36,625 bases of DNA from Streptacidiphilus neutrinimicus (GTDB lineage: Bacteria; Actinomycetota; Actinomycetes; Streptomycetales; Streptomycetaceae). Position numbers and translations under genes: made by a program. The DNA lies in NCBI RefSeq assembly GCF_000787815.1, contig NZ_BBPO01000041.1, positions 2,615-39,239 of the forward strand. Direction: 5' to 3'. A model generated the notes under the pieces. That model searched no databases, was not told the origin of the DNA, and was given only the letters and a program-made list of their open reading frames with translations. Shown piece by piece: positions 11,787 through 36,625 of this stretch; within the stretch, counting starts at the first letter, position 1; the number at the start of each line of letters is the position of its first letter.

Positions 11787-11804
11787 GAGGTTCAGACCCT
11801 CCCG

Positions 11805-14800
11805 CTACAGCGTGCCGCGGACGCGGGACGGCTCGGGAGCGTCGCCGGCCGGCCCCGCGGTGTTCCGCGCGAGCCCGGCCACCATGGCCTCGATGGTGGG
11901 TTCCCGGTAGAAGTCCATCATCGCGTAGTCGCAGTCGAACTCGTCCCGGACCCGGTTGAGCAGGCGCATCGCGTTGATCGAGTGACCGCCCAGATCGAAG
12001 AAGGAACCGCCGGCCTCCGCGCCGACCGGTTGCCCGAGCTCTGCGGACCACAGCTCGCGCACCCGCTCGACCAACCGGTCCACCGCGAGTCCGGCAGGCG
12101 CGACCACCGGAGGCGGGGTCGGTGTCGGCTGCCCGGGATCGGGCAGGGCGGACCTGTCGATCTTCCCGTTCGCGTTCAGCGGCAGGGAGTCGAGCACGAC
12201 CCAGCGCGTCGGCACCAGGTAGGCGGGGAGCCGCCCGCCGAGCTGCTCGCGGATCCGTCCGACGACGTCGGGGGACGGCGTCCTCGGCACGACGTAGCCC
12301 ACGAGGTAGGCGTCGCCCTGGTGGTCGTGGCGCGCGGTGACGTACGCGTCCGCGACCTCCTCCAACGCGAGCAGCGCGTGCGTCGCCTCGCCCGGCTCGA
12401 CCCGGTAGCCACGGATCTTGGCCTGGTCGTCGGCGCGGCCGCGGAACTCGAGGCGGCCGTCCGGGCGCAGCCGTACCAGATCGCCGGTGCGGTACAGCCG
12501 GCCCCACTCGGTGGTCACGAACCGCTCCGCGGTCAGCTCGGGTCGGCCCAGGTAGCCCTGCGCGAGCCCGGCGCCGCCGATGTGGAGCTCCCCCTCGACG
12601 CCGGGGGCGACGCGACGGCCGTGCTCGTCGAGGACGTGCAGCGCGGTGTTGTCGATCGCCCGGCCGAGCGCGATCGGCCCGGCCTCGACGCTCTCGTCAG
12701 CGACCGTCTCCGTGGTCACCAGGACCGTGGCCTCGGTGGGCCCGTAGACGTTGAGGACCTCGTACGGCAGACCGGGGCGGGGGCGACGTCGCATCTCCTC
12801 TCCGCCGAGCATCAGCTGACGCAACGACGCCGGCTGCAGTTCGTCGCCCAGGGTCAGCAGCTCCGCTCCCAGCGGCGTGGGCACGATGCAGACCTCGATC
12901 TCCCTGTCCCCCAGCCACTTCGCCAGCGCGCGGGTGTCCAGCCGGTCGGCGTCGTCGGCGACGACGACCGTGCCGCCCGCGGTCAGGGCGGGCCAGACCT
13001 CGAGCACGGAGGCGTCGAAACTCTGGCTGCACACCATAGCCGCGCGCCGAGCCTCGTCGAAGCCGAAGCGGGCGCGGTGCCAGCCGCAGAGGTTGACCAC
13101 TCCGGCATGGGTGGCGACCACACCCTTCGGCAGGCCGGTCGAGCCCGAGGTGTAGATGACGTAGCAGGGGTCGTCCGCGCTGCCCTCGACCGGCGCGGTC
13201 GGCCCGGCTCGCAACGCGTCGGCTATGTCGAGCAGCGCGATCCCGGGTGCCGGGACGGCGTCCGCCCCGGAGCCGGACAGCACCAGGCGGGCCCCGCTCT
13301 CGGCGAGCACGACGTCGACCCGCTGCCGCCCGAGCGCCGGGTCGAGCGGCAGGTAGGCCGCGCCCCGCCCGAGCACGGCGAGCATCGCCGCGATCAGATC
13401 CGCCGAACGCGGCAGCCACAGCGCGACGACGTCGCCGGAGCCGACGCCGCGCGCGGCGAGCGCCCCGGCGATCCGGTCTGCGCGCGCGACGAGCTCGCCG
13501 TAGCTGACCGCGCCCTGCGACGACTCGACGGCGACGGCGTCCGGACGGCGTGCGGCCTGCTCGTCGACCAGTCGGCGCACGGTCGTGCGCGGCGTCTGGA
13601 CGTCGCGGCCGCGCAGGGCAGCCAACTCGGACAGCCGCAGGCCCGGGTCGTGAGAGCCCGCGCGCAGGATCGAGCGCCACACCGCGAGGAAGCCCTCGAC
13701 CGTGGCGGCGTCGAAGAGGTCGGTGTTGTATTCCAGCTGGCACAGGACGCCGTCCGCGCCGTTGGTCAGGTTGACCGTCAGGTCGGTGACGGCGCGGCTG
13801 GTCGCGAACTCCAGCACCGAGGCCTCTACGCCCGGCAGGTCCAGGTCGAAGACCTGCTCGTTCTCGAACTCGACGATCACCTGGAAGACCGGTGTGCGGT
13901 CGGTGCGGCGCGGGAGCGCGAGGGCGTGCACGATCCGCTCGAAGGGCGTGTCCGAGTGGTCGTAGGCGTCCAGCACGACGCCGCGCACCCGCCCGAGCAG
14001 CTCGGCGAAGGTCGGGTCCCCGGAGAGGTCGATGCGCAGGGCCAGCGGGTTGAGCAGGAAGCCGACCAGATCCTCGGCTCCCTCGGGGCGCACCGAGGCC
14101 GGCGTGCCGAGCACCACCTCGTCCTCGCCCGTGCCGACCTGGCGCACCATGGCGGCGAACGCGGCGAGCAAGGACGTGAACAGGGTGACGCCGTGTGTGC
14201 GGCTCAGGTCCTTGAGCGCCGTGGTGAGTTCGAGGTCGAAGGTGGTGAACGCGGCCCGGCCGCGGGAGGTCATCACCTCGGGCCGGGGCCGGTCCGCGGG
14301 CAGTTGCGGCTCGGGCAGCCGACCGCCCAACTGCCGCACCCACCAGTCCAGCTCCGCGCGCGCGAGCTCCGACTCGCCCGACTCGGCCTGTCGACGCGCC
14401 AGGTCCGCGCAGCTCGCGGTCAGCGCGGGCAGGTCCGCGGGGCGGCCGTCGAGCGCGGCAGTGTAGAGGGCCGACAGGTCGCGGCACATGACCATCGTGG
14501 ACAGCGCGTCCATGACGATGTGGTGCATCGACCAGACCATCACGTGCGCGTCCGGGGCCAGCCGGATCAGCCGGGCGACGAACAGCGGGCCCTCGGCCAG
14601 GTCGAACTGGCGGCGGCCCTCCTCGTCGAGCGCCTCGCGCGCCACCGTCTCCTCGTCGGCGCCGGAGCGGTCCACGAAGGCGAAGTCGAGCTCGGCCGTG
14701 GCCCGCACGATCTGGCACAGCTCGCCGTCGATCTCGCGGAACCCGGTGCGCAGGCTCTCGTGTCGCCGGATCAGGCCGCCGAGCGCGGCATGCAGGGCGT

Positions 14801-17795: not shown

Positions 17796-20700
17796 CGCGG
17801 GCTCCCGCAAGCTGAAGCGACACCAGCTGGGACAGCTGCTCCATCATCTGGAGCTGGACCTGCTGGAGGACCCGGACCTGCTCGGCGAGCGCCTCGAGAG
17901 TCGTGGTCGCGTGGACCGCTGGGGCCGTCACCGCCTCCGCGACGGCGACCGTCGGGGCCGCCGGGACGACGGGTGCCGGAACGGACGCCGGGGCCGTTGC
18001 CGCCGGGACGGGGCTCGCCGCCGGGGCGGGGGTCGCCGCCGGGGCGGTCGGCTCGGCCGCGCCGGCGGAGCGCTGCGCCACCATCGCCGCGAGCAGCGCG
18101 GGCGAGCCGGCCTCCTCGAAGACCTCGCGCAGGCCCACCCGGACCGCGTACTCCCGCTCCAGCTCGCGCACCATGTTGATCATCTGGAGCGAGTCGGCGC
18201 CGAACTCGACGAACGTGCTGCCCGGCCTCACCGCGGAGGGGTCGCAGCCGAAGTGGCGGGCCGTCAGCTCGACGATCCGAGCCAGCACTTGCTGCTCGTG
18301 GGTGGTGGCCGCACGGGTGCTGCTCATACTGTTCCCTCTGTTCCCTTCGGAGTGGGTTGCAGTGCGCGGTGCGAGCACGGACGGGTCCGGCAGGGGGCCT
18401 GTCCAGTAGGTTCGGTGCTGGTAGGGATAGCGCGGCAGCGGCACGCGGCCGCCGCCGCGTCCTTCGGTGAGGGCACTCCAGTCGATGTCGGCCCCGGCGC
18501 AGTAGAGCGCGCCGAGCGACTCGAGCAGCGTCTCCGCCTCGCGTCCGCGCCGCTGCGTGGGCAGCAGGAGCGCGGACGCCTCCTCGGGCAGGGCGCGGCG
18601 GGCGAGGCCGGTGAGGGTCGTTCCCGGTCCGATCTCGACGACCGCGCCGACGCCGGCGTCGGCGAGCGCGGCCAGGACCAGGTCGAAGCGGACGGCCCGG
18701 CGGGTCTGGTGGACGAGGTAGTCGGCGTCCGGGCGCCAACCGAGCTCGCGTAGCGTGCCGTCCGGTCCGGTGACGAACGGGATGTCCAGCTCCGTCAGGC
18801 TTGCTCCGGCGGCCTGGGCTCGCCAGGTCTCGAGCATCGGGTCGAGCAGGCGGGAGTGGAAGGCGCGGTCCACCGCGAGCGGCGCGTACGCGACACCCCT
18901 GGCGTCCGCCGCCGCGCACAGCGTGCGAACTGCCGAGGCGGGCCCGGCGAGCACGTGGTTCGCCCGACCGTTGACGGCGGCGAGGTCCAGATCCGGCACC
19001 GAGGCCAGCAACTCGTCGACGTCCGGGCGCTCCGCGAAGACCGCGACCATGCCGGCCTGGACGCTCGCGTCACGCATCAGCCGGCCACGCGCCACGGTCA
19101 GGCGCATGCCTTCGGCGACCGTGAGCGCACCCGCCGCACACAGCGCCGCATACTCGCCGACGCTGTGGCCCGCGACCAGCTGCGGTCGCACGCCCAGCGA
19201 TTCCCACAGTCTGCAGAGGGCGACCTGGTGAGCGAAGAGCGCGGGCTGCGCGAGCTCGGTCGGCCACACGTCGGCGCCGCCCGGGGGCGCGCCGTCGCCG
19301 GTTCCCAGCAGTTCGGGCAGCAACGAACCGCCGGTCAGCTCCTGGTGGTGCCGATCGCAGGCCTCTACCGTCTCGCGGACGATCGGGAAGAGGTCCGACA
19401 ATGCGCGCGCCATACCGCGATAGGCACTGCCCTGGCCCGAGAACACGAAAGCGACGCCGCGTTCCCCGAGGGGCGCGGCCGAGTGCGCCGCACCCTCGGC
19501 CTTCTCCAGCCGGTCGGCGACCTCGGCGAGGTCGCGGCCCAGCGCGACCGTCCGGTGCGCGTAGTGCCGTCGTCCGACCGCGGCGCTGAGCGTCACGTCC
19601 TCCGTCCGCGCCCCGACGTCGGAGCGCAGCCGACCGACGTAGCGCTCGCGCAGCTCCACGAGCGCCTGCGGCGACTTCGCGGACAGCGGCACCGGGGTCA
19701 CCGGCAGCGGTGGCAGCGTGGCGCTCGGCCGGCGCTGCTCGGGCGCCTCCTCCACGATGAGGTGCACGTTGGTCCCGCCGACCCCGAGCGCGTTGATCCC
19801 CGCGCGGCGCGGGGAGTCGCCGACGGTCCACGGTCGAGCCTGTGCCGGGATGTCGAACGGGCTGCCGGCCAGCGGCAACAAGGGATTGGGCGAACGGAAG
19901 TTCGCCATCGGCGGGATGGTCCTGTTCTTCAGCGCCAGGATCGTCTTGATCAGGCTCGCCATGCCCGCGCAGGCGTCCAGATGGCCGATGTTGGCCTTGG
20001 TGGAGCCGAGCGCACAGTAGCCGACCCGGTCGGTGTCCTCGCGGAACGCCGTCGTCAGGCCCTCGAACTCGATCGGGTCGCCCTTGTAGGTGCCCGTGCC
20101 GTGCGTCTCGAGGTACCCGATGGACTCCGCCGAGACCCTGGCGGCCTGGAGTGCGCGGCGGATCGTCCGCCGCTGTCCCTCGGCGCTCGGCGCGCTGTAT
20201 CCGGCCTTGGACGCCCCGTCGTTGCCGATGCCGCTGCCGAGCAGCACGGCGTGGATCGTGTCGCCGTCGGCCTGCGCGTCGTCGAGGCGCTTGAGGATCA
20301 CGGCGGCGACGCCGTTCCCGCCGACCGTGCCGTCGGACGCCGCGTCGAAGGCACGGCAGACGCCGGTGCGCGACAGGATGGAACCCCTGACGTGCCGGAA
20401 GCCGAGGACCTGCGGGACGTGTACGGCGGCTGCGCCGGCCACGGCGACGTCCGTGTCCCCCGCCAGCAGCGACTGGCTTGCGATGTGCACCGTCGTCAGC
20501 CCCGTCGAGCAGGCGCTCTGCACACCCAACGAGGGGCCGGTCAGGTCGAGCGCGAACGAGGCCCGCGTGGCGATGAAGTCGGGGTGGTTGCCGTACGTGA
20601 CCAGCGATCCGGAGACCCAGTCGGACCAGCCCTCCGGAATCAGGTTGCTGACCAGGTAGGACCGGTGCCCGTACAGGTGATAGCCGTGGGCCGCGAAGAC

Positions 20701-21048
20701 GCCGACCCGTACGCCGTCGGGGGCCGCCGCGTAGCCCGCGTCCTCGAGGGCGTGGTGGACGACCTCCAGGAACAGCCGCTGCTGGGGATCGGTGGCACGC
20801 GCCGTGTTGCCGCTCATGCCGAAGAAGCCGGCGTCGAACTCCGCGATCCCCGGGATCAGCGCGCTCGCGCCGATGAAGTCGGCCTCTCGGTACTCCTCGG
20901 GTGGCACCCCGGCCGCGGCGAGCTGCTCCTCGGTGAAGCGCTGCACGCTGCACACGCCGTCACGGATGTTGCGCCATAAGGCGAGCTCGTCGTCGGCGCC
21001 GGGCAGGCGGAAGGCCATGCCGACGACCGCGATGCGCCGGTCGGTCAT
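17785..21048 (-). CDS. Type I PKS module KS-AT-ACP with C-terminal docking helix
   Basis: A 1087-residue PKS. Ketosynthase: Cys180 in QSACSTG, His316 in ETHGTGT, His356 in NIGHLD. Acyltransferase: GHSVG with Ser629 and RAFH (728-731), which fits malonyl-CoA selection. Carrier protein: GADSL with Ser953. There are no ketoreductase, dehydratase or enoylreductase domains, so the product stays a beta-ketoacyl thioester, which the downstream aminotransferase needs. An Ala/Pro linker (about 995-1045) leads to a C-terminal amphipathic helix rich in Leu/Gln (1051-1080) that looks like a docking element for the next protein. There is no loading domain, so the starter comes from an acyl-CoA or a separate carrier. 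Leu24 is encoded by TTA. It overlaps the MFS gene by ATGA. Confidence 0.93.
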   Translation of the reverse strand: MTDRRIAVVGMAFRLPGADDELALWRNIRDGVCSVQRFTEEQLAAAGVPPEEYREADFIGASALIPGIAEFDAGFFGMSGNTARATDPQQRLFLEVVHHALEDAGYAAAPDGVRVGVFAAHGYHLYGHRSYLVSNLIPEGWSDWVSGSLVTYGNHPDFIATRASFALDLTGPSLGVQSACSTGLTTVHIASQSLLAGDTDVAVAGAAAVHVPQVLGFRHVRGSILSRTGVCRAFDAASDGTVGGNGVAAVILKRLDDAQADGDTIHAVLLGSGIGNDGASKAGYSAPSAEGQRRTIRRALQAARVSAESIGYLETHGTGTYKGDPIEFEGLTTAFREDTDRVGYCALGSTKANIGHLDACAGMASLIKTILALKNRTIPPMANFRSPNPLLPLAGSPFDIPAQARPWTVGDSPRRAGINALGVGGTNVHLIVEEAPEQRRPSATLPPLPVTPVPLSAKSPQALVELRERYVGRLRSDVGARTEDVTLSAAVGRRHYAHRTVALGRDLAEVADRLEKAEGAAHSAAPLGERGVAFVFSGQGSAYRGMARALSDLFPIVRETVEACDRHHQELTGGSLLPELLGTGDGAPPGGADVWPTELAQPALFAHQVALCRLWESLGVRPQLVAGHSVGEYAALCAAGALTVAEGMRLTVARGRLMRDASVQAGMVAVFAERPDVDELLASVPDLDLAAVNGRANHVLAGPASAVRTLCAAADARGVAYAPLAVDRAFHSRLLDPMLETWRAQAAGASLTELDIPFVTGPDGTLRELGWRPDADYLVHQTRRAVRFDLVLAALADAGVGAVVEIGPGTTLTGLARRALPEEASALLLPTQRRGREAETLLESLGALYCAGADIDWSALTEGRGGGRVPLPRYPYQHRTYWTGPLPDPSVLAPRTATHSEGNRGNSMSSTRAATTHEQQVLARIVELTARHFGCDPSAVRPGSTFVEFGADSLQMINMVRELEREYAVRVGLREVFEEAGSPALLAAMVAQRSAGAAEPTAPAATPAPAASPVPAATAPASVPAPVVPAAPTVAVAEAVTAPAVHATTTLEALAEQVRVLQQVQLQMMEQLSQLVSLQLAGARGDR
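20977..20979 (-). other. TTA leucine codon (bldA target) in the PKS gene
   Basis: Codon 24 of the KS-AT-ACP gene is TTA (in the context GCC TTA TGG). In Streptomyces the only tRNA reading UUA is made from bldA, mostly late in growth, so an early TTA can hold back translation of the whole protein. Confidence 0.85.
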
Positions 21049-22319
21049 CTCGCCTCACCGCCCACTGCCGCCGGGTCGAGCTCCGAGGCCGCCTCTTCGC
21101 TGTCCGACCGGCGCGCACCCGAGCGCCTGGAGACGAACACATAGCTCAGGAACGCGACGCCGCAGCCGATCGCGACGCCGTGGGAGACGCCGACCACCCA
21201 CAGCGGGCTGTGATGGTCCAGCAGCAGGGCGCTGATCACCATCCCCGAGCCGAAGCCGAGGTTCTCGGCCATCGAGGAGAAGCCGAAGACATAGCCGCGG
21301 TCGTCGTCGGCCACGGTCTGCAGGCGTGACGCGTAGGCGTTGTCGGTGAACCCGTCGGCCATCCCGGCGCACAGCGCCACGACGACGCCCACGACCAGGG
21401 GCGGGCCGGTGAAGGCGACGATGAACGAGGCGGACATCAGGATCGTGCCGACGGCGAAGGCGTTCTCGCCGATCGAACGCCCGCTCTTCTTCACGTAGCG
21501 CACCACGCCGCGCTGGACCACGATGTTGCCGACGGCCCAGACCGCCCAGAAGCGGCTGACGAACTCCGCGGGATGGGCCGGGTCGAGCGCCGTCGAGTAC
21601 ACCGGCAGGCCGACGTTGTGCGAGGCCGAGCCGAGGGCGTCCACCGCGCGGATCGCGATCATCACGAGGAGTACGGGGGTGGCGCGCAGGATCCGCAGCC
21701 CGATCATCGGGGAGATCTCCCCGCCGCCCGCGGAGGGCGCCGCGGATTCGGACATCCGCAGCTTCAGCGGCAACCGGGCCATGTTCGCCGCGGAGACGAC
21801 GAAGGTCGCCGCGTCGATCCCGAACGCGGCCCGGAAGCCGAAGGCGGTCACCACGATCCCGGCCGAGGCGAAGCCGGCCACCATCGCCAGCGAACGTCCC
21901 GTGGTCAGCAACCCGTTGGCGCGGACCCGCTGGTCCTGCCCGACGATCACCGGGACGCTGCTCCGCAGCGCGACCGTCGAGAGCGTCCCGCCGCACCCGG
22001 CGACCACGGCCACCAGGTAGAGCAGTGCGGGCCGTGCGCCCGGCTGCACCGTGAGCAGCGCCGTCAGTGCCACGGCCTGCGACAGGTCGCCGCAGATCAT
22101 CACGACCTTGCGATTGAAGCGGGTGACGATCGAGCCGGACACGAAGCCCATGAAGAAGCCGACGCCCAGGCGCACGGCCATGATGAGGCCGGTCTGCGCG
22201 GCGCTCCCGGTGGTGCTCAGTGCGTAGAGATTGAGCGCCACGAGATTCAAATAGCTACCGTAGGCGGATACGGCGTTGCCCGCCACCAGATAGCGGAAAT
22301 TCCTGAAGCCGGAGGTCAT
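21045..22319 (-). CDS. MFS transporter (EntS/MFS_3-like), likely product exporter
   Basis: A 424-residue membrane protein with about ten to twelve hydrophobic segments. It begins GFRNFRYLVAGNAVSAYGS and has the first-loop pattern typical of EntS/MFS_3 permeases (GFVSGSIVTRFNRKVVM, about 66-82). I chose the ATG at 22319, where the first membrane helix begins after 7 residues; the frame extends 24 codons further upstream without support. The ribosome binding site is weak. It is the first gene of the PKS-NRPS operon and overlaps the PKS gene by 4 nt, so it most likely exports the product and gives the producer self-protection. Its substrate is otherwise unknown. Confidence 0.87.
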   Translation of the reverse strand: MTSGFRNFRYLVAGNAVSAYGSYLNLVALNLYALSTTGSAAQTGLIMAVRLGVGFFMGFVSGSIVTRFNRKVVMICGDLSQAVALTALLTVQPGARPALLYLVAVVAGCGGTLSTVALRSSVPVIVGQDQRVRANGLLTTGRSLAMVAGFASAGIVVTAFGFRAAFGIDAATFVVSAANMARLPLKLRMSESAAPSAGGGEISPMIGLRILRATPVLLVMIAIRAVDALGSASHNVGLPVYSTALDPAHPAEFVSRFWAVWAVGNIVVQRGVVRYVKKSGRSIGENAFAVGTILMSASFIVAFTGPPLVVGVVVALCAGMADGFTDNAYASRLQTVADDDRGYVFGFSSMAENLGFGSGMVISALLLDHHSPLWVVGVSHGVAIGCGVAFLSYVFVSRRSGARRSDSEEAASELDPAAVGGEAR

Positions 22320-22388
22320 GGAAAAGGGAGCCCTGTCATATGTGGGTTGGCCGGGCTGAACTGAGAGAGCGGACGAGCTTGTGGCTCT

Positions 22389-22426
22389 CATGCATTGCTT
22401 GTGTTTGCTTGCGCTGCATGCATTGC
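22389..22426. promoter_or_regulatory. Direct repeats upstream of the PKS-NRPS operon
   Basis: CATGCATTGC occurs perfectly at 22389-22398 and 22417-22426 (28-bp period). Between them TTGCTTG occurs at 22395-22401 and 22405-22411 (10-bp period). They lie 70-107 bp before the MFS start in an AT-richer stretch, which suggests binding sites for a regulator on one face of the helix. Confidence 0.45.
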
Positions 22427-28177: not shown

Positions 28178-28290
28178 GGAAGCTCCTTGGGGCAGGGGTC
28201 TTCCGCAACCCTGCCGCCGCGGACCGGAGCCCACCACACGACACGCCATCACGAAGGAGGGAAGCCCCCGTCCGACACGCCGGCGGCCGG

Positions 28291-28340
28291 CCCGAGGGTT
28301 CGTGCCCGAGGGTTCGTGCCCGAGGGTTCGTGCCCGAGGG
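28291..28340. repeat. 14-bp tandem repeat, 3.6 copies
   Basis: CCCGAGGGTTCGTG occurs three times without mismatch (28291-28304, 28305-28318, 28319-28332), followed by a partial CCCGAGGG (28333-28340). It is intergenic, between the VOC gene and precursor gene 1. Confidence 0.92.
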
Positions 28341-28345
28341 CCTTC

Positions 28346-28380
28346 GGACCGGCCGCGCGGCGGGCTCGTGGGCCCGGTCC
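28346..28380 (-). terminator. Possible terminator of the RiPP operon
   Basis: GGACCGG (28346-28352) and CCGGTCC (28374-28380) can pair with a 21-nt GC-rich loop that allows some inner pairing. On the minus strand the hairpin begins 2 nt after the stop codon of precursor 1. Confidence 0.5.
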
Positions 28381-28382
28381 TG

Positions 28383-28544
28383 CTAGGCCTTGAGGCTGGA
28401 GCAGCAGGAACTGCAGGTGCTGGAGCAGGTGCCGTTCATGACCTCGGCGGCGTCGGCGTAGTCGGTGATCTCGAAGGTCTCGGACTCGAGCTCCAGGATC
28501 TCGCTGCCCAGGGTCGGCACCGCGGTGGTGGTCTGCTCGTGCAT
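28383..28544 (-). CDS. RiPP precursor peptide 1 (thiopeptide/azole type)
   Basis: A 53-residue peptide; AGAGGAG lies 6 nt before the ATG. Leader: acidic, with the block EILELESETFEITDYADAA (about 16-33) and VMNG before the core. Core: TCSSTCSSCCSSLKA, rich in Cys, Ser and Thr, the residues that cyclodehydratases turn into thiazol(in)es/oxazol(in)es and LanB-type enzymes turn into dehydroalanine/dehydrobutyrine. An acidic 'FEITDYADAAEVM'-like leader with a Ser/Cys-rich tail is characteristic of thiazolylpeptide precursors. The core begins with Thr, not the Ser that starts most thiopeptide rings, so a linear azole peptide is also possible. It is the last gene of the minus-strand cluster and is a near-duplicate of precursor 2. 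Confidence 0.88.
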   Translation of the reverse strand: MHEQTTTAVPTLGSEILELESETFEITDYADAAEVMNGTCSSTCSSCCSSLKA

Positions 28545-28580
28545 GGTGGTCTCCTCTGCGGAAGTCGGGACGGTACCGGC

Positions 28581-28620
28581 GTCGGCGGCAGCCCTGTCGG
28601 GGGACGGGGCTGCCGCCGAC
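28581..28620 (-). promoter_or_regulatory. Perfect 14-bp hairpin between the two precursor genes
   Basis: GTCGGCGGCAGCCC (28581-28594) and GGGCTGCCGCCGAC (28607-28620) form a perfect stem with a 12-nt loop. It lies 10 nt after the stop of precursor 2 and 36 nt before the start of precursor 1. It may be a partial terminator or an RNA-stabilising structure that sets the ratio of the two peptides. Confidence 0.8.
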
Positions 28621-28630
28621 CGCGCGGGTG

Positions 28631-28792
28631 TTACTCCTTGTTGGCGCAGCAGGAGCTGCAGGTGCTCGAGCAGGTCGAGCCGTTCATGACCTCGGCGGCA
28701 TCCGCGTAGTCGGTGATCTCGAAGGTCTCGGACTCGAGCTCCAGGATCTCCTGGCTGAGGGAGGCGAGCGCCTTGTGGTCGACGTTGGACAT
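28631..28792 (-). CDS. RiPP precursor peptide 2 (thiopeptide/azole type)
   Basis: A 53-residue peptide, short enough to be missed by length cut-offs. AGAGGAGG lies 5 nt before the ATG. It begins MSNVDHKALASLSQ and then shares with precursor 1 the leader block from EILELE to VMNG without a change. The core is STCSSTCSSCCANKE, with one extra Ser at the front and a different tail (ANKE in place of SSLKA). The shared TCSSTCSSCC implies the same modification pattern. It ends in TAA. It lies 116 bp after the ABC permease gene, with direct repeats in the gap that could be a promoter or operator. Confidence 0.88.
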   Translation of the reverse strand: MSNVDHKALASLSQEILELESETFEITDYADAAEVMNGSTCSSTCSSCCANKE

Positions 28793-28873
28793 GAGGTCCT
28801 CCTCTGCGGGGGCCCACCGTGCGGCGGGCCTGCGGAACGAACTGGAACAGGTCTATCGGCGGCCGCTGGCAGG

Positions 28874-28902
28874 GGTGCTGGCAGATCGCTGACACATCGC
28901 TG
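28874..28902 (-). promoter_or_regulatory. Heptamer direct repeats at 11-bp period upstream of the precursors
   Basis: On the minus strand CAGCGAT (28902-28896), CAGCGAT (28891-28885) and the weaker CAGCACC (28880-28874) are separated by 4 nt each. Heptamers with 4-nt spacers are the known layout of SARP-type activator sites. They lie just after the ABC permease stop and about 80-110 bp before precursor 2. The same bases also form an inverted repeat TGACA-6 nt-TGTCA (28890-28905). Confidence 0.45.
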
Positions 28903-28908
28903 TCACGT

Positions 28909-29733
28909 TCAGCGCCGCGTGTCCCAGCGGAAGCGGCGCACGGCCACGAGGGTGCCGACGACGCCCCAGGCCAGCAGGACGGCCAGCTGGCGCCACGGCA
29001 CGCCCCCGTGCCCGGTGAAGGCCCCGAGCAGGGCCTGGTTGAGAGGGCGCATGGGCAGGGCGTCGGCCACGTCGTCGAGCAGCGCCGAGTGGATCGGGAA
29101 GTAGTTGCCGGAGATGAACATCAGCGGGAACTGGATGAACTGCACCACCGCCGACGCCGCTTCGGAGTCGCTGATCAGCGAGGAGACGCCGACGCCGAGG
29201 GCGCAGAAGCTGGCGGCGCCCAGCGTCAGCGAGGCGATCGTGGCCCCCCACTGGGCGGGCAGCGGGACGCCGTAGCAGTAGCCGACGACGGTGATCAGGA
29301 CGACCTCGACGGCGCTGACGACGAGCGCGTGGGCGAGCAGGCCGGCGAAGTAGGTCCAGGCGGGCAGCGGGGTGGCGTGCAGACGCTTGAGGATGCCGTT
29401 CTGCCGGCGGATGGAGAGGGAGACGGCGAGCTGCCCGTAGCAGGCGCCGAAGACCGACAGGGCGGCCACGGTGGGGGTGAAGTACTGCATGCCGGACAGG
29501 CCGTAGAAGAAGCTGTCGGGCTGGTTGCCGCCGAAGACGGCTCCGAAGATCACGATGATCATGACCGGCAGTGCGAAGGTGAAGAACACCGACTGCGGGT
29601 TGCGCCAGAACGACAGTTGCTCGTAGCGGATCTGGTGCAGCGTCAGTCGCAGGCGGCCGGTCCCGGCCGCAGCGGTGATCGGCGGGGTGAGTGCGGGACG
29701 TTCGGGGCGTTCGGTGGTGGTGGCCTGGCTCAT
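28909..29733 (-). CDS. ABC-2 type transporter permease
   Basis: A 274-residue membrane protein. A soluble N-terminus of about 50 residues (including FWRNPQSVFFTFALPVMIIVIFG) leads into about six hydrophobic segments; the GYCYGVPLPAQ and FIQFPLMFISGNYFP regions are typical of ABC-2 drug/peptide exporters. Its ATG overlaps the ATPase stop (ATGA), so the two form one transporter. In this cluster it most likely exports the mature peptide and may provide immunity. It ends 116 bp before precursor 2. Confidence 0.88.
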   Translation of the reverse strand: MSQATTTERPERPALTPPITAAAGTGRLRLTLHQIRYEQLSFWRNPQSVFFTFALPVMIIVIFGAVFGGNQPDSFFYGLSGMQYFTPTVAALSVFGACYGQLAVSLSIRRQNGILKRLHATPLPAWTYFAGLLAHALVVSAVEVVLITVVGYCYGVPLPAQWGATIASLTLGAASFCALGVGVSSLISDSEAASAVVQFIQFPLMFISGNYFPIHSALLDDVADALPMRPLNQALLGAFTGHGGVPWRQLAVLLAWGVVGTLVAVRRFRWDTRR

Positions 29734-30695
29734 CGCGTGCTCCGGTGACCTGCGGCGGACAAGGGGGACTTCTCGGTGTCGGGGGCGGGGGCAGCCTCGT
29801 GGTCGGCGGTGAGGCCGAGGTAGACGTCCTCCAGGCTCGGCTGCTCCACCGTCAGACCGTTCAGGACCAGGCCTCGGTCCAGGGCCCAGCCGGTGAGCTG
29901 GTGCAGGACGCGGGTGGGCTCGGCGACGGACGCGGTGACGGTCCCGTCGGCCTCGACGTCGACCGGGACCGGCAGGTCGTCCGGCGAGCAGCCGTCCGGG
30001 AGGGTGAACCGGATCCGCTTGAGGGCGTGGTCGCGGCCGCCGATGGTCGCCGGGGTCCCGGTGGCCACGATCCGCCCGGCGGCGATCACGGCGACGCGGT
30101 CCGCCAGGGCCTGCGCCTCGTCCATGTAGTGGGTGGTGAGCAGGATGCTCGTGCCCGTGTCGCGGAGGTTGCGCACGACGTCCCAGGCGCCGTGGCGGGC
30201 GTTCGGGTCGAAGCCGGTGGTCGGCTCGTCCAGGAAGAGCAGGCGCGGGTTGCCGATGATGCCGAGGGCCAGGTCCAGGCGGCGCTTCTGGCCGCCGGAG
30301 AGGTCCTTGACCCGGGTGCGGCTCTTCTCGGTGAGGCCGGTGAGCGCGACGACCTCGTCGACGGGGCGCGGTGCGGGGTAGTAGCCGGCGTTGCGGGCGA
30401 TGGTCTCCCGGACCGTCAGGTACGGCTCGACGGCGATGTCCTGGAGCACCAGGCCGACATGGCGGCGCAGCCAGCCGCTGTGCGCCCGGTCGCCCGGGTC
30501 GCGGCCGAGCACCTCCACCGTGCCGCCGTCGCGCTGACGGAAGCCCTCGAGGATCTCCAGCGTGGTGGTCTTGCCCGCCCCGTTGGGTCCGAGCAGCGCG
30601 AAGATCTCCCCCGCCTCGACGTGGAAGCCGACGCCGCGGACCGCTTCCTTGTCGCGGTAGCTCTTGCGCAGGTCCTGCACGAGCACGTGGTTCAT
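29730..30695 (-). CDS. ABC transporter ATP-binding protein
   Basis: A 321-residue ATPase. Walker A GPNGAGKTT (about 36-44), Q-loop, signature LSGGQKRR (about 133-140), Walker B LLFLDEPTTG (about 153-162) and the switch histidine in LTTHYMDEA are all present. A C-terminal extension of about 100 residues follows the nucleotide-binding domain, as in DrrA-type drug-export ATPases. The start has GGAGAG about 9 nt upstream. It is coupled to the permease by a 4-nt overlap and separated from the YcaO gene by 252 bp of G-rich repeats. Confidence 0.9.
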   Translation of the reverse strand: MNHVLVQDLRKSYRDKEAVRGVGFHVEAGEIFALLGPNGAGKTTTLEILEGFRQRDGGTVEVLGRDPGDRAHSGWLRRHVGLVLQDIAVEPYLTVRETIARNAGYYPAPRPVDEVVALTGLTEKSRTRVKDLSGGQKRRLDLALGIIGNPRLLFLDEPTTGFDPNARHGAWDVVRNLRDTGTSILLTTHYMDEAQALADRVAVIAAGRIVATGTPATIGGRDHALKRIRFTLPDGCSPDDLPVPVDVEADGTVTASVAEPTRVLHQLTGWALDRGLVLNGLTVEQPSLEDVYLGLTADHEAAPAPDTEKSPLSAAGHRSTR

Positions 30696-30947: not shown

Positions 30948-32957
30948 TCACGAGAAGGGGTGCGGGACCAGCCGCAGGGGCCGGTCGGGGTCGGCGCGCC
31001 GGGCCGCGCGCAGCCTGGGCAGGCGCAGGGCACGCTGGCGGGACCAGCCGAAGTCCATGGGCAGCAGGCCGGGCGCGATGACCCGGACGGTGCGCAGGCC
31101 GAGCGCGCGCTGCTCGTGCGAGGTCTGGTCGACCACGATCACGTCGTGGCCGGCGGCCGCGATCGCGTCGCAGCACCGCCGCACGTCCTCCCGCAGGTCC
31201 AGGGGACCTTCCGGGGCCCGCTGGCCCTGCCCGCGGTCGGCGCCCAGGGAGGCGAGCGGGACGGTTGCCGAGGGCGTCAGATAGGTGGCGGCGTGGGCCG
31301 CCATCCGGGGCAGGCCGAACAGGGCCGGGTGGTCGTCCTGGCGGCGGACGAGGGTGAAGTCCTCGGCCATGGCCTCCAGTTCGTCGGTGCGGGCGGAGAC
31401 GCGCCCGGCCAGGCCGGGCAGATAGGTGAGCGTCTCGGCCAGCGCGGACTCGACCGCCGCGGCCGGGTCCAGCGCCGCCGCGGCGGCGAAGGAGAGGTGT
31501 CCCGGGCCGCCGTCGCGCCGCACGGCGACGGCCGCGACCGAGGGGATCGGCAGGTCGGCGCGGGTGTCGAGCACGTGCAGCCGGTAGCCGAGGAGCTCGG
31601 CCCGATCGAGCATGCCGCGTACCGCGGCCGGTGCGCCGTCGTGGAGGTCGATCCCGGTCAGGGACGCGCCGCCGTACCAGGAGAGCAGGAACGCGTCGCG
31701 TTCGACGACCTCCAGCAGCCCGAACAGGACGGCCTCCTCGAGGCAGCTGCCGGTGGCGCAGCCGTTGGAGCACTCGTCGACGAAGTCGTCCCCCGCGCTG
31801 CCCTCGAAGTAGTAGGCGGAGCGCCGGGCGACGAGCACGGGCCGCTGGTCGCGCAGGGACCAGCCCGGCACCCAGGGGATGGGCCGCGCCGGGTCGAAGG
31901 GCTGCAGCCGCTGCTCGGCGGCGTAGGTCTCCGGCGCGTACACGCCGCAGTCGCGCGGGTCCAGTGCCGCGTCGCCGAGGCTGTCGTACGAGGCCACCAG
32001 CGGCGGGGCGAGGGACTGTCGGCGCGTGCTCGCGTAGCGTTCCAGCCCTTCCAGCAGGCCGAGGTGGCGGCTGCGCCGGAAGGAGCCGGTCTTGCCGCTC
32101 CAGGTCATCTCGTTCAGACCGCCGGAGGTCCGCAGCAGGACCGCGCCGGCCACGGGGGCGGTGGTGGGCGAGGTCAGGTCGGTGCGGGTGCCCGCGCCGA
32201 GCGCGCCGCACACCGGGTTGGCCAGAGCGGTCGCGGGCAGGGCGTACGCCTCGGGCGTCCGCAGCCGGTAGGCGTGCGCGGGCCGGGGACGCGGCAGCAG
32301 GGCAAGTCCGGGCTCCGGCGCGGCGGCCTGCTCATCGGCCTCGCGGCAGACGGGACACAGCGCCTCGGGCAGGAGCGGAACGGTGACGGTGTGCCAGGTG
32401 GCCAGGTCGATCCTGGTCACCCGGCGTAGCCGCCGGTCCCCGCCGGTGAGGCCGTCCGCGGGCGGCGCTTCGCCGGTGACGGCCTCGTGCACCGCCAGGA
32501 CGGCGGTGGCGAGCCCGGCGGTCGGCAGCGGCCACGCCGCGGCGGCGGTCGTGCCACGTCCGGTCTCCAGGGCGTCGCGCTCGGCTGAGCCGCGCAGCCG
32601 CTGCCGACGCATGGCCAGGCACACCCCGCAGGCGGTCCCCTCGGCCGTCCCGTCACCGCCCCAGGGGCCGACAAGGACGGCGTCGGCGGCCAGGTGGACG
32701 GTCGCGCGGGCGCGGTCCGCGAGACCGTGCGAAGCGCCGGACGCAGGGGCGTACGAAGCGGCGGACGCGAGGGCGTCGGCGTCGCCGAGCCAGGCCACGT
32801 CCGGCGCCGGTCGGCCGAGACGTTCGGCCTCGTCGGCGAGCAGCAGACGCAGCCGCTCCCCCGCCGCCGCCAGCGGGTGGTCGGCGGCGGCGAAACCCGC
32901 CGTCACCACTGCCGCCGCTGCTGCGTGCGCGGATGCCTCGGCACCGGTCACGGTCAT
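30948..32957 (-). CDS. Fused TOMM cyclodehydratase (zinc-tetrad/E1-like domain + YcaO)
   Basis: A 669-residue protein. The N-terminal part (about 1-250) has DAVLVGPWGG followed by C110-x2-C113 and C201-x2-C204, the zinc tetrad of the cyclodehydratase partner domain. The C-terminal part is a YcaO enzyme: LLEGLERYAS (Glu303, Glu306), NGCATGSCLEEAVLFGLLEVVERDAF (the ATP/Mg site, about 398-423) and a proline-containing end VPHPFS close to the PxPxP tail of azoline-forming YcaOs. It should use ATP to turn Cys (and perhaps Ser/Thr) of the precursor core into azolines. The true end is Ser, not Pro. No flavin dehydrogenase for oxidation to azoles is in the window. The ATG overlaps the upstream protease stop (ATGA). 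Confidence 0.9.
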   Translation of the reverse strand: MTVTGAEASAHAAAAAVVTAGFAAADHPLAAAGERLRLLLADEAERLGRPAPDVAWLGDADALASAASYAPASGASHGLADRARATVHLAADAVLVGPWGGDGTAEGTACGVCLAMRRQRLRGSAERDALETGRGTTAAAAWPLPTAGLATAVLAVHEAVTGEAPPADGLTGGDRRLRRVTRIDLATWHTVTVPLLPEALCPVCREADEQAAAPEPGLALLPRPRPAHAYRLRTPEAYALPATALANPVCGALGAGTRTDLTSPTTAPVAGAVLLRTSGGLNEMTWSGKTGSFRRSRHLGLLEGLERYASTRRQSLAPPLVASYDSLGDAALDPRDCGVYAPETYAAEQRLQPFDPARPIPWVPGWSLRDQRPVLVARRSAYYFEGSAGDDFVDECSNGCATGSCLEEAVLFGLLEVVERDAFLLSWYGGASLTGIDLHDGAPAAVRGMLDRAELLGYRLHVLDTRADLPIPSVAAVAVRRDGGPGHLSFAAAAALDPAAAVESALAETLTYLPGLAGRVSARTDELEAMAEDFTLVRRQDDHPALFGLPRMAAHAATYLTPSATVPLASLGADRGQGQRAPEGPLDLREDVRRCCDAIAAAGHDVIVVDQTSHEQRALGLRTVRVIAPGLLPMDFGWSRQRALRLPRLRAARRADPDRPLRLVPHPFS

Positions 32958-34201
32958 CGGCCCGCCTCCCGCTGCCGGTGGCGCGCCGGACGGACCACGC
33001 GCAGCGTCACCAGCGCGGTCGTGGCCAGCATCGTCAGCACCGCCGTGAGCAGCCGCTCGGTGGCGGGCGTCAGAGAGAACACCGCCCAGGCGACGGCGAG
33101 CAGCAGTCCCGCCGTCAGGACCGTCCACAGCGCCGCGTAGCCGAGGTAGAGCCGTCTCGCCCGGCGTGGGTAGCCGCCGGCCCCCGGACCCGTGCCGGGC
33201 CGCCGCCCGGGCAGGGAACGGGCGACGAACCTGCGGGTCTCCTGGGCCAGGCGCGTCGTGCCGAGGACCGCCTCCAGGATCCGGTAGCCGTCCAACGGGG
33301 GCAACGGAAGCAGGTTGGCCAGCCCGACGACGGTGCCCGAGAGCAGGACCGCGCTGAGCGTCGGGTGGCTGCCGCCGTGCCGCGTGAGCAGCAGCCAGCC
33401 GCCGTAGGCGGGCAGCAGGACGGCGAGGTTGGTCAGGGCGCCCGCGGCGGCGACGGCGACCTGGCGGCGTCGCGACAGGAAGCGCGCGTCGGGCACGTCG
33501 CAGTACAGGTAGACCATGGGCAGCCGCCAGCGCACACCCAGTTCGCCGACGGTGGCCCCGACCGCCCGAGCGGTCAGCGCGTGGCCGACCTCGTGGAGCG
33601 CCATGCTGAACCACAGGGCGACGGCGACCAGCAGGAACATCGCCGGACGGTGGCCCAACGCCCGTGCCGACGCGGTGAGTTCCGGGAGCCGCCAGGCGAG
33701 GCCCGCAAGCAGGGCGCAGAGCGCCGCGCCCAGGAGCAGCACGGCGGCTCCGCGCGCGACCCGGTGCCGAGCCGGGGAGGGGAGGTGACGCAGCACGTCG
33801 AAGCGCGCGTCGCCGTCCGCGACCAGCCGCAGCCGCCCCTCTGCCCAGTGCCCGCGCGCCGGCGGGGTGGCCGCGGGCACGGCGGCGGCGGACGCCGGCA
33901 GCTGCGTCTCGGTGCCGACCAGCAGACGGCGTCCGTAGAACAGGCCCAGCAGTTGGCGCCACTGCGGCTCGCCGAGCCGGGCCCCGAACCGGGCGGCGTA
34001 GTCCTCGCCGATCTGTTCCAGCGTCCGCACGCCGTCGAGCCGGTCCAGGACGAAGTGCACCTTCGGCGACAGCTCCATCCGGGCGCCGGTGCGCGGGTCG
34101 AGCAGCAGCCGTACGGGCTCGTGCCCGCGCAGCAGCGGGGCGCTGACGAGGATGTCGGGGCGGGTGCGCGGCGCGGCCGCGCGGGGTTCGGTGGGGTTCA
34201 C
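32954..34201 (-). CDS. M50-family membrane metalloprotease with PqqD/RRE-like N-terminus
   Basis: A 415-residue protein starting at a GTG that overlaps the upstream stop (GTGA). Residues 18-95 resemble a PqqD-type peptide-recognition domain (RLLLDPRTGARMELSPKVHFVLDRLDG, then LEQIGEDYAARFG). Several membrane helices follow. HEVGH (203-207) and NLLPLPPLDG (296-305) are the zinc-binding and third-ligand motifs of site-2-protease-type peptidases. Relatives such as YydH occur in RiPP clusters. It could bind the leader and cut within or near the membrane, or serve in immunity. Two or three more hydrophobic segments follow the active site. Confidence 0.85.
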   Translation of the reverse strand: MNPTEPRAAAPRTRPDILVSAPLLRGHEPVRLLLDPRTGARMELSPKVHFVLDRLDGVRTLEQIGEDYAARFGARLGEPQWRQLLGLFYGRRLLVGTETQLPASAAAVPAATPPARGHWAEGRLRLVADGDARFDVLRHLPSPARHRVARGAAVLLLGAALCALLAGLAWRLPELTASARALGHRPAMFLLVAVALWFSMALHEVGHALTARAVGATVGELGVRWRLPMVYLYCDVPDARFLSRRRQVAVAAAGALTNLAVLLPAYGGWLLLTRHGGSHPTLSAVLLSGTVVGLANLLPLPPLDGYRILEAVLGTTRLAQETRRFVARSLPGRRPGTGPGAGGYPRRARRLYLGYAALWTVLTAGLLLAVAWAVFSLTPATERLLTAVLTMLATTALVTLRVVRPARHRQREAGR

Positions 34202-35310
34202 GACGCCGCCGTGGCCGGCTCGGCCGCGCCGGACCCAGCTCGGGGTTCGGCGAGAGCGCGCGCGAGGAGGTAGGCGAGGTAGGCCTCGTCCTGGAGCGTC
34301 ATCGACAGCCGGTTGTTGGTCATGTGCAGGTAGGGGACGAGCAGCCTCGGCAGGGTCACCGCCAAGTCGGTGACGCCGGGCCGGGCGCCGTCCCAGGGCT
34401 CCTCGTCCTGGTCCGGTGGGGCGAAGGCGATCCGCCCCTGCTCGGTCAGGTCGACCAGGCGGGCCCGCAGCTCGCGGCAGTGCTCGGCCCAGGCCCGCAG
34501 CGTGCCGGGCAGGGTGGAGAAGTCGTCTGCCTCGGCCGCGGCGAGGATGCGCCGGATGCGCGGGGCGAGCGAGTCGGCGGTGGCCCGGTAGCCGCGGTCG
34601 AAGTCGCCCTGGCCTGCGGTCTCGGCTCTGCCGGAGGACTCGTCCCAGAAGCGGTGGTAGCCGTCGAGGAACTCGGCCAGCAACTCGCCGTCGCGCACCA
34701 GGCATCCGGCGGTGACCATCATCACCTGGGCGGCGAAGCCGAGGGCGACGGGGCGCAGGTGCAGGTTCAGGGTGCGGTTGGCGTCGAGGACGAGGCGGCT
34801 GGAGTGCTCGAAGTGCCACTCCGCGAGCGCCACGCCCGCCGGGCCGCCGTACTTGCCGTACTCGGGCTGGTAGCGCTCGGCGCTGAAGGTGTTGGTGTCG
34901 CGCAGCCGCATGGTGCCGTCCGGGCCGAGCAGCCGGGTGCGCTGCGCCGGGGTGAACTCCCGCTCCATCAGCTTGTCGTAGTAGTCGTCCAGGAAGCCGG
35001 GCGGCACCTCGTACAGGGCCGGGCGACGGCGCAGGAACGCGGCGACGGCCGCCTCGGTGCGCTCGCGCACGGCCGGGGCCGCCTCGGGCGTGGAGGGGCG
35101 CAGGCGCAGCCGGACGTGGGGCCCCTCCAGCCAGTAGTTGATGAAGAAGTGACCCGCCAGCAGGCCGTCGTCGGTCAGCTCGTCGACGAGGGGCTCGATC
35201 AGCTGGAGCAGCAGCGGGCGGGGGCTGGCCGAGTAGTAGATGTGGTAGGCCAGCCAGTGGCCCCGGGTCTCCTCGGCGCCCTGCTGCGGACCGGTGTGCA
35301 CGGAGTTCAT
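34198..35310 (-). CDS. LanB elimination-domain / thiopeptide-type biosynthesis protein (SpaB C-terminal family)
   Basis: A 370-residue protein; the ATG at 35310 has AAGGA before it and overlaps the upstream stop by ATGA. It starts with the family pattern GHWLAYHIYYSASP (about 17-30), LLLQLIEPLVDEL, FFINYWLEGPHVRLRLRP (about 55-72) and ends with LHMTNNRLSMTLQDEAYLAYLLARAL, all typical of the stand-alone SpaB C-terminal (thiopeptide-type) family. In split LanB systems such proteins remove glutamate from glutamylated Ser/Thr to give dehydroamino acids. The homologous pyridine synthases join two dehydroalanines in thiopeptides. Sequence alone does not let me choose between these roles. Confidence 0.88.
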   Translation of the reverse strand: MNSVHTGPQQGAEETRGHWLAYHIYYSASPRPLLLQLIEPLVDELTDDGLLAGHFFINYWLEGPHVRLRLRPSTPEAAPAVRERTEAAVAAFLRRRPALYEVPPGFLDDYYDKLMEREFTPAQRTRLLGPDGTMRLRDTNTFSAERYQPEYGKYGGPAGVALAEWHFEHSSRLVLDANRTLNLHLRPVALGFAAQVMMVTAGCLVRDGELLAEFLDGYHRFWDESSGRAETAGQGDFDRGYRATADSLAPRIRRILAAAEADDFSTLPGTLRAWAEHCRELRARLVDLTEQGRIAFAPPDQDEEPWDGARPGVTDLAVTLPRLLVPYLHMTNNRLSMTLQDEAYLAYLLARALAEPRAGSGAAEPATAAS

Positions 35311-36625
35311 CGGAGTCCTTCCTCGGTCGGCTCGGTCGGCTCGGGCGGTTCGTTCGTCAGGGTTGCCTGGGTTGTGTGTGTTGTGTGGGTCGTCCGGGGT
35401 GTCGGGTGCGCGGCGGGCCCGGCGGTCGTGGGCAGCAGCTCCACCACGAGCTCGCTCACGTGGTCGCCCGCTCCGGAGCGGGCCGCCAGCTCGTGGCCGG
35501 CCGGGAGCATCTCCTCGAACACGACGCGTCCGGGGCGCTCGGCCAGGGCGGCGTCCAGGGCCAGCAGCGACAGCGGGCTGTCGAAGTCGACGTACTGCGG
35601 CTTGTCCCGGTCCGGGGCGCCGGCTGCGGCGTCCTGGCGGATCCGCGCGAACACCTGGGCGGGCAGGCCGTGGCGGGCACGCAGGCGCAGCCACGCCAGG
35701 TACCACTCGGCCTCGTCACCGCCCGCCTCGCGGCGCGGCAGCGAGCCGGCCGCCGCGGTCCAGGAGCGCCGCTGGAGCACCAGCGCGCCGTACCGCAGCC
35801 GGGGGCGGGTGGTCACGCCGTCCACGGCCGGGCCCTCGGGGACGCCGCGCCAGGGGTCCAACTGCGCCTGGAAGGCCGGGGAGAGCAGCAGCAGGGTGCG
35901 CGGGATCTCCGGGAGCGCCACCGACACCAGGTAGCCGAGGTAGAGCGGCACGACCTCGCGGTCCAGTCGCCGCGAGCGCAGCACGAGTCGGTCGTCCGTC
36001 TCGTCGTGGACCACGTAGAGGTCGTCGAGGTCGAGGCGGGCGTCGGGTTCGGCGGTGCCGGTCTCGCCGGGGCAGACGATCTCGTAGTCGGTCAGCCGGT
36101 CGTGCAGGTTGAGGTTGGTGGTGGCGGCCCCTGCCGTGACCTCCGCGAACACCGCCCCTTCGGGCCGGTTCGCGCGCAGGTGCGCGCGCAGCGCCTCGGC
36201 CACCTCGCCGCCGTCCTCGTCGCGCAGGCAGTGGGTGAACCGGGTGAACGGGTAACCCAGGCCGCCGTATGCGTTGTTCAGGACCAGCAGTGGGTCGTCC
36301 GCGCGCCGGACCCACTGCAGGAAGTGCGACTGCGGCTGGAAGGCCCGTGGCAGCGCGCCCAGGTGCGCGGTGGCGGCCGCGACGGCCTGCGGAGTGAGGA
36401 ACAGCTCGGGGCTCTCGCCCTGGTTGCCGCTCCACAGCTCCCGCATCCGCTCGGTGAGTTCGGCCCTGGCGCGGTCGATCGCGGTGATCTCCGGCTGGCG
36501 CAGCCAGTTCTCCTCCGGCGGCCGGCCGCCGTCCGGGGCGGAGCGGCCGGGGCGGGCGGCGAAGTCGAGGTAGCGGTCGAAGATGTCCTCGTGGAAGTCG
36601 TGGACGAGGGTGAGCAGGTCGTCGC
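35307..36625 (-). CDS. Lantibiotic dehydratase (LanB) glutamylation protein, start outside window
   Basis: The frame is open to the right edge; 438 residues of the C-terminal part are visible. It contains LWSGNQGESPELFLTPQ, YGGLGYPFTRFTHCL, EVTAGAATTNLNLHDRLTDYEIVCPGE, PLYLGYLVSVALPE and a closing YVDFDSPLSLLALDAAL, as in the LanB N-terminal family that transfers glutamate from glutamyl-tRNA to Ser/Thr of a precursor peptide. The last 40 residues are a Thr/Pro tail. It is followed by the separate elimination-type protein with a 4-nt overlap, so the dehydratase is split as in thiopeptide and goadsporin pathways. The promoter and any further genes lie beyond the window. Confidence 0.88.
   Translation of the reverse strand, partial: DDLLTLVHDFHEDIFDRYLDFAARPGRSAPDGGRPPEENWLRQPEITAIDRARAELTERMRELWSGNQGESPELFLTPQAVAAATAHLGALPRAFQPQSHFLQWVRRADDPLLVLNNAYGGLGYPFTRFTHCLRDEDGGEVAEALRAHLRANRPEGAVFAEVTAGAATTNLNLHDRLTDYEIVCPGETGTAEPDARLDLDDLYVVHDETDDRLVLRSRRLDREVVPLYLGYLVSVALPEIPRTLLLLSPAFQAQLDPWRGVPEGPAVDGVTTRPRLRYGALVLQRRSWTAAAGSLPRREAGGDEAEWYLAWLRLRARHGLPAQVFARIRQDAAAGAPDRDKPQYVDFDSPLSLLALDAALAERPGRVVFEEMLPAGHELAARSGAGDHVSELVVELLPTTAGPAAHPTPRTTHTTHTTQATLTNEPPEPTEPTEEGLR

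Follow-up and report, generated by a model that had tools for sequence, protein, structure and literature searches.

The question that this locus raises is what is made from two short genes whose products end in nearly the same run of Cys, Ser and Thr. The initial annotation of the window (the whole 36,625-nucleotide stretch of Streptacidiphilus neutrinimicus DNA analysed here, from an 8.4 Mb draft genome) described twin 53-residue azole precursors and offered two products for them, a thiopeptide of a new ring size or a linear polyazole. We find both open reading frames where they had been placed, on the minus strand:

28631..28792, minus strand: precursor gene 1, MSNVDHKALASLSQEILELESETFEITDYADAAEVMNGSTCSSTCSSCCANKE, 53 aa; core STCSSTCSSCC (predicted start), then ANKE
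28383..28544, minus strand: precursor gene 2, MHEQTTTAVPTLGSEILELESETFEITDYADAAEVMNGTCSSTCSSCCSSLKA, 53 aa; core TCSSTCSSCC, without the leading Ser, then SSLKA

Both exceed the cut-off of 30 bits for NF033400 (thiazolylpeptide-type bacteriocin; the thiazolyl_B precursor family), precursor 1 with 36.2 bits and precursor 2 with 33.2, and for TIGR03892 (thiopep_precurs, cut-off 25 bits) precursor 1 lies over the cut-off with 25.2 bits and precursor 2 under it with 20.2. The pair exceeds chance expectation among the frames of the window, since of 463 stop-bounded frames of at least 30 aa just these two combine ten or more Cys/Ser/Thr with four or more Cys in their last 18 residues. The leader block EILELESETFEITDYADAAEVMNG (24 residues) and the 10-residue core TCSSTCSSCC are identical in the two, as had been reported. 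Of the differences described between them, those in the tails and in the leading Ser hold, but the first 14 residues of the leaders differ too, and the statement that one gene is too short for common gene-calling cut-offs fails, both being 53 aa long. With the core start placed as above, precursor 1 has Ser1 and Ser9 and precursor 2 lacks Ser1. The two frames are 86 bases apart, and each has a purine-rich ribosome site (GAGGAGG and GAGGAG, one per gene) 5-6 bases 5′ of its ATG. Their codons differ at 2 of 24 positions in the leader block and 2 of 10 in the core, always synonymously, which suggests that the duplication is recent or that the copies have been kept alike. Streptacidiphilus melanogenes NBRC 103184 possesses both genes. 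Its precursor 1 is 98% identical to that of the window, with 5 of 53 codons different (four synonymous, one nonsynonymous), and terminates in D, not E; its precursor 2 has the same core as the window's and differs at 3 of 39 compared codons, all synonymously, the N-terminal residues outside this comparison being different. We note also a 14-base tandem repeat, GCCCGAGGGTTCGT, present in 3.6 perfect copies at 28290-28340, immediately 3′ of precursor 2.

The precursors are real and part of a complete azole/dehydroalanine cluster, all of which is read from the minus strand. In transcription order the precursors are preceded by the genes below; coordinates headed L005 and L006 are those of two neighbouring stretches of the same genome (window position = L005 position + 24385).

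L006:78-1082, minus strand: SARP-like regulator, by profile matches
L005:17778-19991, minus strand: F-like protein, with ThiF-type and leader-binding matches and without a Pfam match
L005:15692-17788, minus strand: YcaO1 with a leader-binding domain, by profile matches
within L005:13998-16631, minus strand: SagB, by profile matches
L005:10922-14041, minus strand: LanB-N glutamylation protein; 35307..36625 of the window is its 3′ part, and the gene continues to about 38426 in window numbering
34198..35310, minus strand: stand-alone Lant_dehydr_C protein (LanB-C), eliminase type by profiles, tree and motif; predicted start
32954..34204, minus strand: M50 peptidase, site-2-type, HEVGH (PF02163, 1e-11); candidate leader peptidase
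30948..32957, minus strand: YcaO cyclodehydratase 2 fused to a leader-binding/C-like domain (TIGR03604, 6.2e-91; TIGR03882, 2.6e-16; PF02624, 1.6e-80); predicted start
29730..30695, minus strand: ABC transporter ATPase (PF00005, 4.5e-29)
28909..29733, minus strand: ABC-2 type transporter permease (PF01061, 1.7e-22; weak SagH/DrrB-type matches); predicted start

The view of the twins as azole precursors is thus backed by the precursor models and by adjoining YcaO, SagB and leader-binding genes. Both YcaO proteins match TIGR03882 (leader-binding), contain GLLEGLER, SxGCAxG and EQRALGL and end in PHPFP or PHPFS, which we take to be YcaO motifs. The closest solved structures to LanB-N are TbtB (6ec7, 1.8e-47) and GodF (9jhq, 3.9e-15), and the M50 peptidase has a PqqD-like stretch below threshold (PF05402, 0.0068) and scores 77.5 bits against NF041824, whose cut-off is 300. 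Several of the predicted gene starts overlap the preceding stop codon, and these coordinates suggest one operon. Directly after the final base of the window LanB-N is interrupted by a run of N (L005:12241-12424) with the same 20 residues flanking both sides. This is an assembly gap; in S. melanogenes the gene has no N and is spanned by two matches that overlap by the 20 residues.

The S. melanogenes cluster is complete and has the same gene order throughout, with the regulator first and the second precursor last (L178, L022). Past it lie AraC, PIG-L, MFS and PKS homologs in the order of the window, with identities of 90, 95, 92 and 97% respectively (the PKS value covers only 38 residues, at the end of the locus), and the glyoxalase gene that follows precursor 2 in the window has no match in the S. 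melanogenes locus, so that precursor 2 is most likely the last gene of the cluster. Elsewhere in the window, positions 9501-22391 hold NRPS/PKS genes that encode a thioesterase-condensation protein, a 1087-aa KS-AT-carrier protein, an MFS transporter and a 2001-aa protein with class-III aminotransferase, luciferase-like monooxygenase, C, A and carrier domains.

A silent or decaying cluster that yields no product in this strain seems to us unlikely. Relicts do exist, for example in a genome (G011) where two precursors and part of a permease gene survive next to a transposase, and a scan of 28200-29000 for sigma-70 promoter and terminator consensus sequences gave no match. However, the sigma-70 consensus is frequently absent from Streptomyces promoters, the ORFs of the cluster are open except at the assembly gap, and in S. 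melanogenes the cluster is complete and its precursors show mainly synonymous change.

Could the product be a small-ring thiopeptide? Ser1 and Ser9 of precursor 1 would then become dehydroalanines and be joined in a pyridine, and precursor 2 would be a dead or regulatory copy. Consistent with such a ring, thiazolylpeptide models match leader and core, the azole enzymes and split LanB are as in thiopeptides, and TbtD is the best and sole PDB match below 0.001 (4.4e-4) of the Lant_dehydr_C protein, a match that taken alone would have misled. Thiopeptide clusters encode both an eliminase and a pyridine synthase, and both are Lant_dehydr_C proteins. When the pyridine-synthase model NF045556 was searched in 394 genomes, 39 had a match at E<=1e-10 and eight a match over the cut-off. 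From the 60 matches listed we took a comparison set of 27, with labels given by score and neighbourhood only: 16 presumed pyridine synthases (10 over the cut-off, six weaker) and 11 presumed eliminases, which are matches adjoining a presumed pyridine-synthase gene. A maximum-likelihood tree places 10 family Lant_dehydr_C proteins (out of 74 matched) and the 11 presumed eliminases on one branch (100/99), apart from the 16 presumed pyridine synthases. One column of the HxxxNR motif is His in 10/10 family and 11/11 eliminase rows and Tyr (14) or Phe (2) in the pyridine synthases. By tree and motif, then, the one Lant_dehydr_C protein that the cluster encodes belongs to the eliminase type. Its NF045556 score of 84.5 bits (cut-off 325) also falls inside the range of 42.8 to 105.8 bits spanned by the presumed eliminases.

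Nor did we find a second Lant_dehydr_C protein in the cluster. With five of seven first-look candidates in this genome scored, none was over the NF045556 cut-off and the only match at 1e-10 was the cluster's own protein; PF14028 has five matches in the genome, four of them at two other loci, where the frames span 769-1155 aa. Among family loci of at least 12 kb (80 out of 85 sought), counting ORFs of at least 150 aa, 73 have one Lant_dehydr_C ORF, seven have none and none has two, and the pyridine-synthase profile is preferred in 0 of the 80. Together with the eliminase tree and motif, the lack of an over-cut-off NF045556 match and the core without Ser1, this led us to reject a thiopeptide ring, and with it the new ring size proposed for the locus. 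Precursor 2, moreover, has undergone only synonymous change over its 39 compared codons, yet lacks Ser1, and this too counts against the small-ring thiopeptide, which we judge very improbable. The other product offered by the initial annotation, a linear polyazole, is supported.

We think it likely, from the homologies of the cluster proteins, that both genes encode leader-core precursors of a linear RiPP that contains azoles and dehydroalanine. The F-like protein and the leader-binding domains of the YcaO fusions would bind the leader block, after which the YcaO proteins would cyclise the Cys and some Ser/Thr of the core and the rings would be oxidised to azoles by SagB. Remaining Ser would be glutamylated by the split LanB pair, which would also eliminate the glutamate to give dehydroalanine, the M50 peptidase might cut off the leader near the NG/core junction, and export would fall to the ABC pair. 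Two cores would give two congeners from one machinery, and without a [4+2] pyridine synthase the peptide would stay linear. For an assumed core start, the calculated [M+H]+ of STCSSTCSSCCANKE with four thiazoles is 1430.42, and with one or two further dehydrations 1412.41 or 1394.40; the corresponding values for TCSSTCSSCCSSLKA are 1387.45, 1369.44 and 1351.43. A retained Gly would add 57.02, and in S. melanogenes the terminal D of precursor 1 would shift the masses of that peptide by one CH2.

Several observations count against a linear product. The family Lant_dehydr_C proteins carry FFINYW in place of the F(F/Y)(L/V)RYW of the presumed eliminases, profiles and trees are no proof of chemistry, and intact precursors occur in G011 (L175) and in one further locus (L062) without cluster enzymes nearby. 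The cluster may also contain a non-homologous macrocyclase. An azole peptide that additionally carries thioether bridges between Cys and dehydroalanine, or that is closed by an unrecognised enzyme, could account for dehydration enzymes beside Cys-rich cores and might involve the F-like protein, whose role is putative. Nevertheless, Pfam scans of the cluster proteins revealed no LanC-type cyclase, and YcaO enzymes form azoles preferentially at Cys; we attach little probability to such bridging or closure, and prefer the linear azole/dehydroalanine peptide.

The window precursors are not a singleton. A profile built from nine precursors finds relatives (E<=1e-3) in 88 of 394 Streptomycetaceae genomes, and the main branch of the family carries a longer, near-invariant core, STSCSSTSTCSSTTSTTSCSA, of about 21 residues with the pattern STSCSSTSTCSSTTSTTSC(S/T)A. 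From named GTDB genomes a leader pattern selected 127 stretches, of which 114 were confirmed and the best 80 of the 114 kept, a choice that biases conservation upward; in these, 79 of 83 precursors recognised by a sequence pattern hold exactly STCSSTTSTTSC, in 36 DNA versions that use both the AGC and the TCN kinds of Ser codon. The remaining four comprise both S. melanogenes precursors, a single precursor with STCSATTSTTSC and one member of the Nocardioides pair (L093). A 12-residue core stretch is letter-perfect across Streptomyces, Kitasatospora, Actinacidiphila and Micromonospora in the named loci while the DNA varies, which indicates a strong, shared function.

Among 77 named loci of at least 9 kb we matched YcaO in 76, the ABC ATPase in 74, LanB-N in 73, the permease in 73, LanB-C in 72, the M50 peptidase in 72 and SagB in 69; both YcaO queries mostly match one gene, so that these figures are not counts of two YcaO genes, and a distinct YcaO1 is present in L178 (82%) and L076 (59%). 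The F-like protein was matched in 3 of the 77, as expected, because the named loci extend only about 10 kb either side of the precursor and mostly stop short of the far end of the operon in relatives. We note that in L062 (Streptomyces physcomitrii) a main-branch precursor with an intact core has no cluster gene matched within 10 kb on each side, and that in L076 (Streptomyces sp. F001) LanB-C, M50 and permease are unmatched between LanB-N and YcaO2, as if deleted.

The window pair belongs to a short-core branch whose gene order and transporter are unlike those of the main branch. In main-branch loci such as L026 the precursor adjoins YcaO2 and points away from the operon, with the ABC pair placed between M50 and YcaO2, whereas in the window, in S. 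melanogenes and in genome G133 (L176) YcaO2, the ABC pair and the precursors follow one another in the same direction. G133 carries both kinds, short-branch STCSSTTSSSSCCKK (L105, L176) and, elsewhere, main-branch SSTSCSSTSTCSSTTSTTSCTA in main-branch order (L223). The core STCSSTTSSSSCC is intermediate between STCSSTTSTTSC and STCSSTCSSCC, and the short cores would correspond to the C-terminal half of the main core. The ABC proteins of the window are about 58-75% identical to other ABC pairs in most genomes found and about 28-48% to the main branch's own pair, which we read as a probable exchange of the transporter. The window permease has matches at E<=1e-30 in 32 of 394 genomes, 23 of these above 300 bits. 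A permease-guided search of 11 regions for short-core clusters gave no full relative of the window cluster; five of the 11 had a YcaO1 and/or LanB-C match, all of 28-33% identity, and a crude precursor scan of those five found none. In L207-L211 a different YcaO and/or LanB-C cluster adjoins ABC genes 61-75% identical to the window's.

Two further loci are worth recording. At the G011 locus (L175:5285-7359) we find a pair of short-core precursors, their cores intact, together with a fragment of a permease, and a transposase between them; no further cluster gene was matched in 19 kb there, and the rest of the genome yielded just a YcaO match of 36% and a partial LanB-C match of 34%. The locus looks like a decayed cluster with its precursors retained. 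In G013 (L177:13900-14560) three tandem precursors with other cores, such as ATSTTSCSTTSSSTSCTSSCG, follow YcaO2 and ABC pieces; LanB is absent near these precursors in a genome that is 76% complete and frame-broken at the locus.

The main interest of the locus lies in the near-invariant core of the family and the short natural variant of it in the window. Goadsporin acts on Streptomyces development. We raise tentatively the possibility that the family is an undescribed, widespread linear azole/dehydroalanine class, its core fixed by a conserved target or a signalling role, from which the Streptacidiphilus-type branch arose by shortening the core to its conserved C-terminal half, with duplication of the core and adoption of another exporter. 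The short twin cores do look like a natural truncation of the main-branch peptide, and if this is so they would reveal which part of the core matters. They would also offer a small, tractable substrate pair with which to study how Ser, Thr and Cys are shared between two YcaO proteins and a split LanB.

A product of the family was not found in the open-licence PMC literature, where the core and leader strings matched only the phrase thiazolylpeptide-type bacteriocin; a description may exist in subscription papers or supplements, which lie outside that scope. The passages of the Streptacidiphilus genome-mining paper (PMC7601586) do not describe the peptide, and its table for S. melanogenes gives 0 thiopeptide clusters and 1 bacteriocin cluster. 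S. pacificus CWH03, the producer of spongiicolazolicin, carries a main-branch precursor (L063), but spongiicolazolicin was rejected as the family product, since its peptides of 29 and 28 residues, as given in passages of PMC8838263, misfit a core of about 21.

How does the cluster compare with known systems? Main-branch NF033400-type precursors share the leader block, the core STCSST and homologous enzymes with the window, whose cores differ in being 10-11 Cys/Ser/Thr followed by a Lys-containing tail rather than about 21 residues, as do gene order and transporter. With thiopeptides such as thiomuracin (Tbt) the cluster shares azole enzymes (a YcaO cyclodehydratase and a SagB-type dehydrogenase beside the precursor), an F-like protein, precursors that match thiazolylpeptide models and, by homology, separate LanB-type glutamylation and elimination proteins, but a TbtD-type pyridine synthase was not found in it and one core lacks Ser1. 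Dehydrazoles such as carnazolamide combine azoles and dehydroalanine in one peptide, as we propose here, although according to passages of PMC10676384 their dehydration is by a DUF4135 LanM-type enzyme and not a split LanB. A product working like goadsporin or the predicted coryneazolisins would fit best. Coryneazolisins, as outlined in passages of Cox et al. 2015 (PMC4603692), are a predicted class, proposed to be non-macrocyclic and with no known product in that paper, that has two YcaO (D) proteins, of which one is discrete and the other C-fused, along with lanthipeptide-like dehydratases and Cys/Ser/Thr-rich cores of 10 C/S/T, Ile and then 5-7 C/S/T, and that lacks a [4+2] protein. Their name appears in one paper of the open-licence literature. 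The window cluster likewise has two D proteins and lanthipeptide-like dehydratases and lacks a [4+2] protein, but both of its D proteins carry a leader-binding domain and its cores, compared with the published description only, have no Ile, and for these two reasons we do not place it in that class. Goadsporin, in passages of PMC5303826, is a linear peptide whose azoles and dehydroalanine are made by a YcaO protein, a dehydrogenase and a split LanB (GodF/GodG), from a cluster with one cyclodehydratase (GodD), a peptidase-ABC protein (GodB) and an acetyltransferase (GodH). Neither a GodH-type acetyltransferase nor a GodB-type protein was found among the cluster proteins scanned against Pfam, and the window cluster has two YcaO proteins, an M50 peptidase and a separate ABC pair instead. 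Like the goadsporin system, however, it combines YcaO, dehydrogenase and split LanB, including a LanB-N related to GodF, with no pyridine synthase.
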